This document shows, one piece after another, positions 46,656-52,769 of a stretch of DNA of 64,000 nt. The stretch's first letter is position 1. Each line of letters starts with the position of its first letter. Source of the DNA: Spiroplasma sp. SV19 (GTDB lineage: Bacteria; Bacillota_I; Bacilli_A; Mycoplasmatales; Mycoplasmataceae); NCBI RefSeq assembly GCF_030060925.1, contig NZ_CP045455.1, positions 1-64,000 of the forward strand, given 5' to 3'. The position numbers were made by a program, and so were the translations under genes. A model generated the notes under the pieces. It was not told the origin of the DNA, ran no database searches, and saw nothing but the letters and a program-made list of their open reading frames with translations.

Positions 46656-48554
46656 ATGGGAGAATCAGTGGCGACAAAACCAAATAAATTTACCACATGA
46701 TTAAATAACAAATTTATTCCTACTGTTGGAAAAATTGGAAACCAGACGCACTTATCAATTATTCGGGATAGTTTTGCTTTAATTACGCCGTTACTAATTG
46801 CAGGAGCCTTAGCTGTGTTTATTAATCAAATTATCTTAGGTTCAAGTGTTATTTCATTATCGTATTGGATTGCTTATTGAAGCAAAATGTACGATGGTTT
46901 TGAGGGCGATAACATTATTTTTTTACCTAACGCTCTGAAGGCACTTGATGCCTTACGATCTGTTAATGGGGTAATTTGAAATGCTTCATTAATGGTAATG
47001 ACGTTATATATTGTTTTTCTAATTGGTTATTTATTAGGAAAACGCCGTGGGCAAGATCCAGCAATTATGGCTGGAATTGTGTCATTTGCAACTTTTATTG
47101 TGGCGGGAGCTGGAATTGCTGGCTGAGAGTTTGCACAAAAATTTATGGGCGCTGAAGGGTTGTTTTCGGGAATTATTATTGCCTTTTTAAGCGCAGAATT
47201 ATTTATTTTTTTACAACGCAATAATCGTTTAGCGATTAGAATGCCAAAAAACGTCCCGCCTGCCGTTGGTCATGCTTTTGCCAAATTATTACCAATGATT
47301 ATTACTACTTTTTTGTTTGGAATTGTATCGCAATTATTAATTTGAGCACCAATTGAATACACGGTGATTGATCAATTCAACCAAGAATTTATTAAACAAG
47401 ATAATTTTGCAGGAATTTATCGAAATACCCACGGTGAAATGTTTCAATTATTAAATGGAACTTTACAACCATTAACTAATGCTCAAACTGCATTGGTAAC
47501 AAAAATTGAATATTTAACAATGACTGCTAATCCAATGTGAGGGGAATTTGGTCCGTTGGATAAAATTACAACAGAACCAGAATATAGTGCTTTTAATACA
47601 AATTTTAAAGCCTTAACATTAGTTACTTTAATTTATAAATTTTTCACATATCCCTTTATGAACGCAGCATCTAATCCCAATGTTGGATTAGGATTTGCCT
47701 TATTATATATTTTATTTGTTTCAATTTTTTGATTCTTTGGTTTACATGGTACAAACATTATGAATGGAATTTTTGCGCCAGTTTGATTATATGCAACAGC
47801 ACAAAATTCAATTGCTTTTAAAGCAGGACAAAACTTACCATTTATTTTTTCACAAGGATTTTTTGATGGATTCATCTTTTTAGGGGGATGAGGAATGTCT
47901 TTAGGGTTATTACTGATTACTTTAATTATGGGACGCGATAAACAAGCACGAGCTATTTCAAAAAGTTCAATTGCCCCCGGAATATTTAACATTAATGAAC
48001 CAGTAACCTTTGCGTATCCCTTAATTTTAAACCCCGTGATGGCAATTCCAGCCATTATTGGGCCATGTTTACTAGTAATTTGAACCTGATTTTGAATCTC
48101 AACTGGTGTTGTGCCCGGCGCAGCATTATTAATTCCATGGGTCGCACCGGTGGGAGTAGGAGCCTTTATTACAACAGGAAGCTGAAAGGGAATTCTGTTA
48201 GCCCTCTCAAATTTAATATTAATGGCTATCCTTTATATTCCGTTCATTTTTATTGCTAATAAAATTGCAAAAAATAATGATACCGCTGTTTCGCTTAATT
48301 ATTTAGGACGAATTCAATTCTTGTTTACTGGTCGTAATTATGCCGAACCACAAGCAAAAGAATTACGTCTTCGTCAACGTGCTGAATTAAAACAGAGTTT
48401 AAATCCACAAGAACGTCGTGTTCTCAAAGAACGTTATCGTAATGAATGAAAAACTTTACATAATGAATTAGTAACAAAATATCGCCAAATTCGCAGTGAT
48501 AAAAAAACTGCACGGCAATTAGCAAAAAAAGATCGTAAAACAAAAAAAGAATAA
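46656..48554 (+). CDS. celB: PTS cellobiose/diacetylchitobiose-type IIC permease, copy 1
   Basis: A 632-residue membrane protein. NQTHLSIIRDSFALITPLLI starts the membrane domain, HGTNIMNGIF carries the conserved His region, and FNINEPVTFAYPLILNP matches the NEP signature of the lactose/cellobiose IIC family. The usual length is 430-460. The excess comes from a segment between membrane helices (residues about 240-320, with GEMFQLLNGTLQPLTN) and a charged helical tail of about 90 residues (KELRLRQRAELKQSLNPQER). AAAGGAGTTGATTTAATT precedes the ATG. Beta-diglucosides or chitobiose are likely substrates; the exact sugar is not determined. Confidence 0.9.
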
Positions 48555-48578: not shown

Positions 48579-49061
48579 ATGGGAATTTGAAAAACAGCAG
48601 CTAACGCGAATAGTCCCGATCGAAAATATCATAATAATTTTGATGAAGTTCACCGCTTTTGTGAAGGACATTATACTTTTGATGTTTTTGAAGCAGTTGA
48701 ACCGTTATTTCAAAAAATTGTAACATTATCGTTATTAACAATGCGAGAAAAACTCCGCTTAGAGCACTTAAAACCAGAGCTTGTTTTACATGATAAAGTT
48801 ACTGGGCAAAGTTATTTATGTAATGAATATGTTCCAAACCAAGTTTATAGTTTAAAAACAAAACTTGATTCAGATACTTATTGAACAATTTTTCGATTTG
48901 AGAAAATCAAACCAAATCGTACGCGAATTACATATTTACAACGGGTTCAAAAAGACCAAACAATTGGGGGTGCAGTACGGTTTTTAGGCAGACGAACTTT
49001 TTTAAAAAATATTCGTAAAAAAGGTGCTCAAATTGCTCTTTATTTATCCCAACAAAAATAA
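48579..49061 (+). CDS. DUF3284-like protein of the PTS locus
   Basis: A 160-residue soluble protein. Residues 25-160 suggest the DUF3284 fold found beside cellobiose PTS genes in Firmicutes and Mollicutes: FDVFEAVEPLFQKIVTLSLL at the start, YVPNQVYSLKTKLDSDTYWT, then RITYLQRVQKDQ and the basic end FLGRRTFLKNIRKKGAQIAL. The match is from memory of the pattern and not from a search. AACTGGAGGTGCCAAAGAACAG precedes the ATG. It lies 24 bases behind IIC and is probably co-transcribed. Function unknown. Confidence 0.6.
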
Positions 49062-49143: not shown

Positions 49144-49527
49144 ATGCAAGTTAATCTTTTCGAAATTGATTATTTACAATTATGTTTTTCTGATTTAGGT
49201 TCAGAATATCTTCATAAAACTAATATTGAAGATATTATTTTGTATCAAACTGAAGTTCAAGTTGATAAATTACGGGTTAATTATCATCAAATGAATTTAG
49301 ATAAAGAATGAGATTCTTTTAAATTGAAGATTATTGATTCAACAGCAGCAGTTAATGTTTATCAAACTTGTCAAAATTTAAATTTTAATTCAACAAATAA
49401 AATTAAAGTTCTTTGTAAGTTAAAACCACAAGGCAAAATGATTATGCGTTGTGTTGCAAGTATTAGTCAATCTTCTGTATCTTCACCAGTTTCTTTTGAC
49501 ATTAATATTTTAAATCAACCTTATTAA
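49144..49527 (+). CDS. Small unknown protein
   Basis: A 127-residue frame with one TGA read as Trp (DKEWDSF). It starts MQVNLFEIDYLQLCFSDLG and ends in beta-type segments (KIKVLCKLKPQGKMIMRCVA; SPVSFDINILNQPY). No membrane segment or motif is visible. It lies 82 bases behind the DUF3284-like gene with a weak TAAAAT box between (about 49112), and a terminator follows. Such small proteins with the DUF3284-like partner could belong to the PTS locus, but no function is recognised. Confidence 0.6.
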
Positions 49528-49579
49528 TGGTAATGATTATGATAAAATTTTCTAATTAATAAATTTGATGAAAATCACA

Positions 49580-49617
49580 AATATTATTTGTTTTTCAGAA
49601 ACAAATAATATTTTTTA
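49580..49617 (+). terminator. Terminator before the agmatine deiminase homologue
   Basis: AATATTATTTGTTT pairs with AAACAAATAATATT around TTCAG, then TTTTAATT follows. Confidence 0.85.
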
Positions 49618-49682
49618 ATTATGAAATCTAGTTGTTATAACAGCAATTATTATTCATACTTTAGAATGGAGGAACTCATAAA

Positions 49683-50801
49683 ATGAGTAAATTATTAACA
49701 ACAACACCCAAACAAGATGACTTTTATTTACCAGCTGAAACAAATAATCACCTTCGTACTTGAATGATGTGACCACATATGAAGGATAATTGACAAAAAG
49801 ATGCCTTTCCGGCACAAAAGATTTTCACTTTAATTGCAAAAATAATTAGTACTTATGAACCAGTTGAAATGATTGTTAATGAACAAAACTATTCTCGTGC
49901 TAAAAAAATGTTGGGAAATGCAAATGTTAATTTATTAAAGCTTAAGTATTATGATAGTTGAGCGCGTGATTTGGGGGCTCTTTATTTAGTAAATGCAACT
50001 GGTGATCGTCGAGCAGTTAGTTTTCAGTTTAACGGTTGAGGCATGCAAAATAGTTTAGTGTTAAAAGAACGACAGTTTAAGTGAGATTATACAATTGACA
50101 ACCAAGTTGCAATTGCGATGGCTCACGCTAGTGGACTTGATTATTATGCTTGTCCGTTAGTGCTAGAAGGTGGGGCTATTCATACCGATGGGGAAGGAAC
50201 ATTGTATACAACCGAAGAATGCCTATTAAATTCAAATCGTAATCCGTCATTAACAAGGGACGAAGTTGAAGAATATTTAAAGCAATACTTAAATGTTGAG
50301 AAAGTAATTTGAATTCCACGGGGAATGTATAGTGATGAAACAAGCGGTCATATTAATAATTTATTGCATATTGTTGAACCGGGACATCTTTTATTAAACT
50401 GAACAGATAATAAAATTGATCCCCAATATGAACGCAGTTTAGAAGCATTATTATTGCTAGAAAAAACCGTTGATGCGAAAGGACGAGTATTAAAAATTAC
50501 TAAGTTACATCAACCAACCCCACTTTTTTTGACAAAACGCGAAGCAAGTGAGCGTAAAGATAGTGCACGGTTAGTGCATCGAATTGCTGGTTTTCGAATG
50601 CCAGCAAGTTATTTAAATTTTCATCTTGTTAATAAAGCTTTAATCTTACCAATTTTTGGCGACCCAATTTGAGATCAAAATGCAATTACTGTTTTAACAA
50701 AATGTTTTCCAACTCGTGAAGTGATTCCTGTTTATGCTCGTGAAATTGTTTTAGGGGGTGGGGGAATTCACTCTATGACTCAGACAGAATTTTTGTTCTA
50801 G
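49683..50801 (+). CDS. aguA: Agmatine deiminase homologue lacking catalytic residues
   Basis: A 372-residue member of the agmatine deiminase family, which hydrolyses agmatine to N-carbamoylputrescine. Family landmarks are clear: RTWMMWPHMKDNW...FPAQ near the N-terminus, [29 protein letters not shown] with the Glu, and LNWTDN. However, the C-terminal GGGNIHCITQ signature reads [10 protein letters not shown], so the nucleophilic Cys is Ser (TCT at 50772), and GHxDN reads GHINN, so the catalytic Asp is Asn. RDxGP reads RDLGA. The protein ends six residues later. The frame is intact with TGA as Trp, and GGAGGAACTCATAAA precedes the ATG. Likely inactive or repurposed. Confidence 0.88.
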
Positions 50802-50870: not shown

Positions 50871-52769
50871 ATGGGAGAATCAATCGTAAGAAAGCCGAGC
50901 AAATTTACAACATGAATTAACAACAAATTTATTCCTGTTGTTGAAAAAATTGGGAATCAAACCCACTTGTCGATTATTCGAGATAGTTTTGCGCTAATTA
51001 CCCCGTTATTTATTGCGGGGGCTTTAGCTATCTTTATTGATCAAATTATCTTAGGTTCGAGTGTTATTTCATTATCGTATTGAATTGCTTATTGAAGTAA
51101 AATGTATGAGGGTTTTGATGGGGATAACATTATTTTTCTATCTAATGTTGGAAAGACATTTGATGCTTTAAAATCCGTTAATGGAGTAGTTTGAAACGCT
51201 TCATTAATGGTGATGACATTATATATTGTCTTTCTAATTGGCTATTTATTAGGAAAACGGCGCGAACAAGACCCGGCAATTATCGCTGGAATTGTCTCTT
51301 TTGCAACTTTTATTGTGGCGGGAGCTGGGATTGCTGGTTGAGAGTTTGCACAAAAATTTATGGGGGTAGATGGTTTATTTTCGGGAATTATTGTTGCCTT
51401 TTTAAGTGCAGAATTATTTATTTTTTTACAACGTAATAATCGTTTAACGATTAGAATGCCAAAAAATATCCCTCCTGCCGTTGGCCATGCTTTTGCTAAA
51501 TTATTACCAATGATTATTACCACTTTTTTGTTTGGAATTGTGTCGCAATTATTAATTTGAGCACCAATTGAATACACGGTAATTGATCAATTCAAGCAAG
51601 AATTTATTAACCAAGATAATTTTGGGGGAATTTATCGAAATACCCACGGTGAAATGTTTCAATTATTAAATGGAACTTTACAACCATTAACTAATGTTCA
51701 AACTGCATTGGTAACAAAAATTGAATATTTGACAATGACCTCTGATTCAATATGAGGGGCATTTGGTTCGTTGGATGAAATTACAACAGAACCAGAATAT
51801 AGTACTTTCAATTTAAATTTTAAGACCTTAACATTAGTTACTTTAATTTATAAATTTTTTACATATCCTTTTATGAATGTTGCCGCTAATCCCAATATTG
51901 GGTTAGGATTAGCCTTATTATATATTTTCTTTGCCTCAATTTTTTGATTCTTTGGTTTACATGGCACAAACATTATGAATGGAATTTTTGGTCCAATCTG
52001 ATTATATGCGACAGTTCAAAATTCAATTGCTTTTAAAGCGGGTCAAAATCTACCATTTATTTTCTCCCTAGGATTTTTTGATGCCTTTATTTTTTTAGGA
52101 GGATGAGGAATGTCGCTGGGATTAATTCTTATTACCTTAATTATGGGACGCGATAAGCAAACACGTACTGTTTCAAAAAAATTAATTGTACCAACAATAT
52201 TTAACATTGATGAACCAGTAACCTTTGCATATCCGTTATTTTTAAACCCTGTGTTGGTAATTCCAAGCATTATTGGCTCGCTCTTATTAGTAATTTGAAC
52301 CTGATTTTGAATTTCAATTGGCGTTGTGCCCGGTGCAGCATTATTAATTCCATGAATGGCTCCGGTCGGAATTGGTGCTTTTATTACAACAGGCAGCTGA
52401 AAGGGCATTATTTTAGCGTTTTCAAATTTAATTTTAATGGTTGTTCTTTATATTCCATTTATTTTAATTGCTAATAGAATTGCAAAAAATAATGGTACCA
52501 CTGTTTCGCTTAATTATTTAGGACGAATTCAATTTTTGCTTATTGGTCGTAATTATGCTGAACCACAGGCAAAAGAATTACGTCTTCGTCAACGGGTTGA
52601 ATTAAAACAGAGTTTAAATCCACAAGAACGTCGTATTCTCAAAGAACGTCATCGTAATGAATGAAAAACTTTACATAATGAATTAGTAGCAAAATATCGT
52701 CAAGTTCGTCATGACAAAAAAAGGGCACGACAATTTGCCAAACAGAATCGAAAAACAAGTAAAATTTAG
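50871..52769 (+). CDS. PTS cellobiose-type IIC permease, copy 2
   Basis: A 632-residue paralogue of the permease at 46656-48554, identical in length and highly similar throughout. It includes the same internal segment and the same basic C-terminal tail (KELRLRQRVELKQSLNPQER). One difference lies in the sugar-binding signature: FNINEPVTFAYP in copy 1 is FNIDEPVTFAYP here. The membrane helices and NQTHLSIIRDSF are kept. AGAAAGGAAATAATTTAGTT precedes the ATG. No IIB is attached; it would have to share the IIB at 46317. The frame is intact with many TGA codons, which argues that it is functional. Confidence 0.9.

Follow-up and report, generated by a model that had tools for sequence, protein, structure and literature searches.

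Purifying selection on an agmatine deiminase-like gene of Spiroplasma that lacks the catalytic cysteine and aspartate

Introduction

When a gene of an enzyme family has lost the residues on which the chemistry depends and still presents an open reading frame, the question arises whether it is decaying or is kept for another task. This question is raised by a locus in a stretch of 64,000 nucleotides of Spiroplasma sp. SV19 (the whole stretch is called the window), where a first-pass annotation had described an agmatine deiminase (AguA) fold with the nucleophilic Cys and a catalytic Asp replaced. The comparison described here covers a genus sample of 14 genomes, in which the window's own genome is G000 and G004, G005, and G007 are together referred to as the trio. 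The gene probably encodes a pseudoenzyme that was inactivated before two species groups split and that purifying selection has since maintained in a role other than deimination.

Identity of the gene and its replaced residues

The gene and its key codons lie at the following positions of the window.

49683 to 50801, plus strand: inactive agmatine deiminase-like protein, 372 residues under translation table 4 (from ORF reading, profile searches, and an AF2 model)
49968 to 49970, plus strand: codon 96, guanidinium-binding Asp kept (DSWARD), corresponding by alignment to Asp94 of MtAIH (PMC6447857)
50349 to 50351, plus strand: codon 223, catalytic His kept (from pocket comparison and codon alignment)
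50355 to 50357, plus strand: codon 225, AAT (Asn), replacing the catalytic Asp of GHxDN (from alignment with relatives)
50772 to 50774, plus strand: codon 364, TCT (Ser), replacing the nucleophilic Cys (from alignment with relatives)

The coordinates, frame, and length in the first-pass annotation were borne out under translation table 4, by which nine TGA codons of the frame are read as Trp; all 372 codons are open, with none of the stops or frameshifts that mark a pseudogene. The product matches the agmatine deiminase profile TIGR03380 above its cut-off (E 8e-131, 436 bits against 381.8) and PF04371 with E 1.7e-104, the homology being full-length. The loss of the two catalytic residues was likewise found, as residues 222–226 read GHINN where GHxDN is expected (D225N) and residues 358–364 read GGGGIHS where GGGNIHC is expected (C364S), while His223, Asp96, Glu162, and Asn312 are retained. 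Because three other genomes carry the same replacements, these are not attributable to chance or to a sequencing slip.

Although TIGR03380 is an equivalog model that stands for agmatine deiminase as a function, the Cys of GGGNIHC is here Ser364, the HxD pair keeps its His while the Asp is Asn225, and the accompanying putrescine carbamoyltransferase and antiporter are absent at the locus, being present around a canonical copy elsewhere in the genome. The gene fits the description of a pseudoenzyme, namely a homologue without residues needed in catalysis whose gene is kept by selection.

Predicted fold and binding pocket

The AF2 model (pLDDT 91.0 and pTM 0.90 from a 19-row alignment) has the pentein propeller fold, with a Foldseek TM of 0.93 to 3h7k and a VIA Z of 56.1 (rmsd 1.7, 359 aligned), the similarity of the model to agmatine deiminases of plants and enterococci extending over nearly the whole length; the entrance region 122–131 has a pLDDT below 50, a point against a ligand having been retained. 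In the available part of the account of the Medicago agmatine iminohydrolase (PMC6447857), Cys366, Asp226, and His224 are named as catalytic, and the ligand is surrounded by Asp94, Asp220, Asp89, Trp91, Trp125, and Gly361, residue 94 being given there as both Asn and Asp. The equivalents by alignment are, in the same order, Ser364, Asn225, His223, Asp96, Glu219, Asp91, Trp93, Trp119, and Gly359. Of the 13 pocket positions examined, only the two catalytic ones are changed in the window protein; every one of the 11 non-catalytic positions is retained there, and 10 of the 11 are retained in all four intact inactive copies, the exception being W119L in G007.

The effect of the two replacements can be judged from P. 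gingivalis PPAD, whose residues 351 and 238 appear to correspond to residues 364 and 225 of the present protein. According to the available text on PPAD, C351A/S and D238A/N each abolish activity while the protein level stays normal (PMC4487231). By this analogy the earlier claim that deimination should be impossible is well supported, and the protein would be unable to deiminate. Binding is a separate matter, since the C315S agmatine deiminase of C. jejuni, deposited with substrate bound (PDB 6B2W), indicates that a change of Cys to Ser need not abolish it; PPAD C351A is also described as having been crystallised with substrate (PMC4487231). Lost chemistry with retained ligand binding is therefore, by analogy, plausible for the Spiroplasma protein. 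The PPAD variants C351A/S and D238A/N and the C. jejuni variant C315S are laboratory versions of the substitutions found here, with the difference that they were made by hand, whereas the present change is natural, double, and conserved.

Among the positions that are invariant in live sequences, the trio has changed at 9 of the 28 that lie in active-site motifs and at 7 of the 69 that lie elsewhere (p 0.014); H363N and G163S are among the motif changes, as is W119L in a single copy. For the window alone the counts are 4 of 28 and 5 of 69 (p 0.28). This erosion in the trio speaks against a strictly conserved ligand. The net charge of the inactive copies ranges from -1 to +5, compared with -7 to -26 in ten active-type copies, although the sign tests for this shift are weak (p 0.036 to 0.085) and non-independent. 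Such a loss of negative charge would be odd for a binder of cationic agmatine and would better suit a neutral or anionic partner. The concentration of changes in the active-site motifs with the rest of the fold kept, together with the shift towards a neutral or basic charge, would also accord with a purely structural role, or with the binding of protein, RNA, or membrane, to which the old pocket is irrelevant. This alternative deserves serious attention even if it is on the unlikely side, the 10 non-catalytic contacts that are unchanged in all four copies standing against it.

Distribution and origin of the inactive copy

AguA-like matches occur in 9 of the 14 genus genomes, with none of any kind in the other 5. 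Four genomes hold an intact inactive copy (the window's genome and the trio) and two a broken copy of the inactive type, in three frameshifted pieces in G002 and cut short in G012. The gene is absent from the remaining 8. Two of these, G009 and G010, do have a second AguA copy, but one of a separate, active-type lineage, intact in G010 (GHVDN, GGGNIHCITQ) and broken in G009. Canonical AguA is present in four genus genomes (G000, G003, G009, and G010), and at wider ranks AguA matches were obtained in 11 of 60 family genomes and 48 of 395 in the class sample. Since the inactive gene is absent or broken in 10 of the 14 genomes, its role is conditional and, as far as these genomes indicate, it is dispensable in some lineages.

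Six key positions were read by tblastn in 59 fetched AguA-like loci, 48 of which show D-E-H-D-N-C. The other 11 comprise the four intact inactive copies (D-E-H-N-N-S), three pieces of one broken copy, one cut copy, one broken copy with His changed to Tyr, and two alignments that stop short of the Cys. Outside the inactive clade, the double replacement was seen in none of these 59 loci, which represent matches with a locus and not a full census. No close relatives of the gene appeared in a wider contig scan (18 loci, all Bacteroidales-type by title), all 69 records from a plasmid search were below 60% identity, and no match was found in PHROGs. A search by title among open-licence papers returned no publication on a conserved inactive agmatine deiminase in Spiroplasma-type bacteria.

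Six changes, D225N, C364S, N361G, D140N, D243N, and M16L, are fixed in all four intact inactive copies, which form a single clade with 100/100 support in a 21-row protein tree; the nearest outgroup consists of the second copies of G010 and G009. This gene tree differs from the species tree given by thrS, in which identity to the window's genome is 91% for G010, 89% for G009, and 80–81% for the trio. Most simply, the inactive gene would predate the split of the two species groups, the active-type second copy would be a paralogue of greater age, and the replacements would have been inherited from one ancestor. Independent loss in the two groups is unlikely in view of the six shared fixed changes and the TCN codons for Ser364 in all four copies.

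The order thrS, c5 (a small ORF described below), and the AguA-like gene recurs in each of the six genomes that carry the gene, whole or broken, which fits vertical descent, and pyrB follows in G005 and also in the window beyond an EIIC gene. Horizontal transfer of the inactive copy between the groups is not favoured, since the fourfold divergence between window and trio (0.51–0.54) is not below that of thrS (0.45–0.49) and the gene order is common to both groups.

Selection on the inactive copy

Codon models were run with table 4 under GY+F3X4, the branch model covering 9 sequences and 361 codons. As estimated from four sequences only, with synonymous sites between window and trio near saturation, omega is 0.071 for the inactive copies and 0.082 for the trio, compared with 0.060 for canonical aguA (three genomes), 0.056 for thrS, 0.034 for pyk, and 0.054 for pfk. 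In the branch model, the inactive clade has an omega of 0.074, not different from 0.061 elsewhere (p 0.33), and an omega of 1 is rejected with 2 delta lnL of 319.6; for the less diverged trio the corresponding figures are 0.083 and 117.2, and for the window branch alone 0.056 and 18.9. These codon models show purifying selection on the inactive copy that is as strict as that on the active paralogue.

Simulations of neutral evolution at the observed fourfold divergence give the same picture. The window and the trio would be expected to share about 14% identity, with 28 stops, and in fact share about 75%, with none; between G005 and G007, the expectation is about 59% identity and 12 stops, against 93% and none. 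Among the positions invariant in 10 active-type sequences, 78 of 97 are kept in all four inactive copies. The new residues are constant while third bases have drifted between window and trio (codon 140 AAC/AAT, 225 AAT/AAC, 361 GGA/GGC, 364 TCT/TCA), so the replacements themselves seem to be held.

The first-pass annotation had offered early decay as one of its two readings, meaning a functionless gene that happens to be open still. This does fit the broken copies of G002 and G012, which make up two of the six genus copies of the inactive kind, and the motif erosion in the trio and an omega of 0.322 on the two youngest tips, G007 and G004, lend it some support (p 0.0009 against a single omega, an omega of 1 being rejected at a 2 delta lnL of only 4.3). 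The rise on these tips possibly reflects recent relaxation; in an informal comparison with thrS it does not seem peculiar to the gene, since 3.2% of its residues and 3.6% of those of thrS differ between G007 and G004, as do 3% of the fourfold sites in each gene. For the window copy, decay is rejected, because omega is 0.056 on its branch and 0.074 for the clade instead of near 1 as in a pseudogene, neutrality would have left many stops, and the replacements are common to both sides of a deep split. As an account of the gene as a whole, it is very unlikely.

On the stem where the residues were lost, omega is raised (0.272, p 0.047), as in a change of function. It is conceivable that the protein became a different enzyme of the pentein fold, acting on another substrate through Ser364 or with no use of the former nucleophile; the binding residues are retained along with His223 and Asn312, and the whole second-copy lineage, its active-type members included, has an altered entrance loop (FNGWGMQN). 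The complete inactivity of both PPAD C351S and PPAD D238N, as given in the available text (PMC4487231), and the variation of motif residues around the pocket in the trio make such a change improbable.

Genomic setting

The surroundings of the gene in the window contain the following features.

46656 to 48554, plus strand: PTS EIIC copy 1, upstream, neighbour only (profile search)
48579 to 49061, plus strand: DUF3284-like ORF below the Pfam cut-off, neighbour only (profile search)
49144 to 49527, plus strand: c5, a 127-residue ORF of unknown family, directly upstream of the gene in all 6 genomes that have it, whole or broken (neighbour survey)
49579 to 49613, plus strand: 16-pair hairpin with a T-rich tail, terminator-like, between c5 and the gene (z -6.85)
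49668 to 49673, plus strand: GGAGGA, Shine-Dalgarno-like, nine bases upstream of the start codon ATG, also present in the aligned relatives
50871 to 52769, plus strand: PTS EIIC copy 2, DNA 87% identical to copy 1, neighbour only (profile search)

The terminator-like hairpin, which is visible in the upstream alignment of G005, G007, G004, and G002, may set the gene apart as its own transcription unit, and together with GGAGGA it suggests that the gene is translated from a separate unit. Promoter-like sites are not enriched over chance (27 found, 35.3 expected).

The ORF c5 is without a match in NCBIfam or PHROGs, and in Pfam nothing reaches the cut-off (best E 0.083); it lies close to thrS in several genomes and is under weaker constraint (omega 0.188, codon model). 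A functional pair of c5 and the inactive gene is not supported, as c5 occurs in 10 of the 14 genus genomes and 4 of these are without any copy of the gene.

Two directly oriented PTS EIIC genes with 87% identical DNA bracket an island of the DUF3284-like ORF, c5, and the AguA-like gene, and G010 has a single frameshifted EIIC gene at the corresponding place. The three EIIC genes, two in the window and one in G010, are 84–87% identical to each other. Deletion of the island's AguA-like gene in G010 by recombination between EIIC genes is not supported, since a hybrid would be expected and 241 informative sites are mixed throughout. The earlier description of the gene as lying between two PTS permeases is correct for the window and fails as a conserved setting, since the 5 other genomes that carry the gene, whole or broken, do not have these permeases there; a functional link to the permeases is thus not supported, and the PTS-flanked setting explains nothing about the gene.

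Relation to the canonical agmatine operon

The genome of the window (1.46 Mb) contains a second, canonical AguA at 771472–772554, with GHIDN and GGGNIHCITQ motifs and 47% identity to the inactive product. It is grouped with a carbamoyltransferase and an amino-acid antiporter at 768988–772554, the carbamoyltransferase upstream of it scoring 493 bits with the putrescine carbamoyltransferase model TIGR04384, just under the cut-off of 500. The earlier remark that a putrescine carbamoyltransferase is missing therefore holds at the inactive locus and not genome-wide. With canonical AguA, carbamoyltransferase, and antiporter all present, a functional agmatine pathway that does not need the inactive gene is very likely present in the organism. 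In the trio, no canonical AguA, no such antiporter, and no close match to a putrescine-type carbamoyltransferase were found.

A regulatory subunit that enters mixed oligomers with the canonical enzyme of the same cell might be imagined from the intact canonical operon of the window's genome and from the tetramers of the E. faecalis and S. mutans enzymes mentioned in the available text of PMC6447857. The copies of the trio are nonetheless constrained as strongly where those canonical partners are missing, which makes this hardly credible; more generally, the role of the inactive gene cannot depend on canonical AguA, because three of the four genomes with an intact copy have none.

Possible role of the protein

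Between the two readings of the first-pass annotation, that of a binding or regulatory protein is thus favoured over decay, with the ligand a matter of inference. The contacts still present in the pocket (Asp91, Trp93, Asp96, Glu162, Asp218, Glu219, His223, Asn312, and Gly359) would allow a guanidino or ureido compound to be taken up, and with no nucleophile left and the catalytic pair deprived of its Asp it would not be turned over. The protein would then act as a binding protein, possibly as a sensor, a buffer, or a partner-binding protein, and what it binds is probably a guanidino or ureido compound or a partner.

A more specific proposal is that the two substitutions yield a stable binder of a ureido product such as citrulline or N-carbamoylputrescine. 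The charge of PPAD Asp238 has been proposed, in the available text, to repel the neutral ureido product (PMC4487231); a change of Asp to Asn would remove this repulsion, and Cys to Ser would stop turnover. The trio keeps an arginine deiminase-like gene whose score is below the family cut-off. In this specific form the proposal is rather doubtful, and if true, it would mean that a pentein has come to serve as a receptor for metabolites in cells that have few regulators.

Other AguA-like loci

Several other loci in the survey are of interest in their own right. In the class-level genome of L071 (positions 1–2613), AguA stands behind an Orn/Lys/Arg decarboxylase domain (PF01276 and PF04371) in a single frame of 870 residues, which would apparently carry arginine to N-carbamoylputrescine on one polypeptide. 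Similar open frames of about 870–930 residues are present in L068, L069, and L072–L080, the domain scan having been made on L071 only, and a nitrilase-like ORF, recognised by eye, follows the fused gene in L071 and L073.

Among the family-level genomes, G052 has a second AguA (L046) that ends in LGGEIFTV in place of the Cys motif, perhaps an independent loss by frame change. In the canonical operon of G009 (L042; G009:C1:1658451-1660276 and 308305-308625), the putrescine-type carbamoyltransferase gene is in pieces, and the antiporter and AguA are open. The active-type second AguA of G010 (L036:9705-10811) has the entrance loop FNGWGMQN, compared with FNAWGG in canonical AguA, and adjoins a P-type cation ATPase with no carbamoyltransferase or antiporter there; its substrate may be other than agmatine.

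Comparison with known systems and significance

The inactive protein shares 36–44% identity over 343–362 aligned residues with canonical AguA (TIGR03380; E. faecalis 2JER, Arabidopsis 3H7K, and Medicago 6NIB), as well as the predicted fold (Z about 55–56 to 3h7k and 2jer), the binding residues, and the His and Asn; it differs in the replaced Cys and Asp and in its place outside the agmatine operon. The pentein fold also serves in a non-enzymatic binding role in eIF6, whose absence from the fold-search matches listed for the model excludes nothing.

Inactive deiminase paralogues are already known, an example being AguA2 of Listeria monocytogenes, a second agmatine deiminase homologue for which no activity is shown in the available text (PMC7698193). 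Likened by description, it accompanies an active AguA as an inactive second homologue, an arrangement resembling that of the window's genome, whereas G004, G005, and G007 keep the inactive copy only, and selection has been measured for the Spiroplasma gene. The inactivity of the Listeria protein has reportedly been put down to a Gly/Cys difference at position 157; the loss described here concerns the catalytic Cys and Asp. Human PAD6 is another natural deiminase homologue, in which, according to the available text, the usual active-site motifs are missing and no activity is shown (PMC4487231), although it is a distant animal protein that has lost other residues.

The family model TIGR03380 names the protein agmatine deiminase, and it is also above its cut-off for the inactive copy of G005, so that pathway reconstructions would credit these genomes with a step that is probably beyond them. 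Should the protein indeed be a binder, it would represent a naturally occurring double mutant that selection maintains in small, otherwise gene-shedding genomes and a clean case of an enzyme fold reused after its chemistry has gone.
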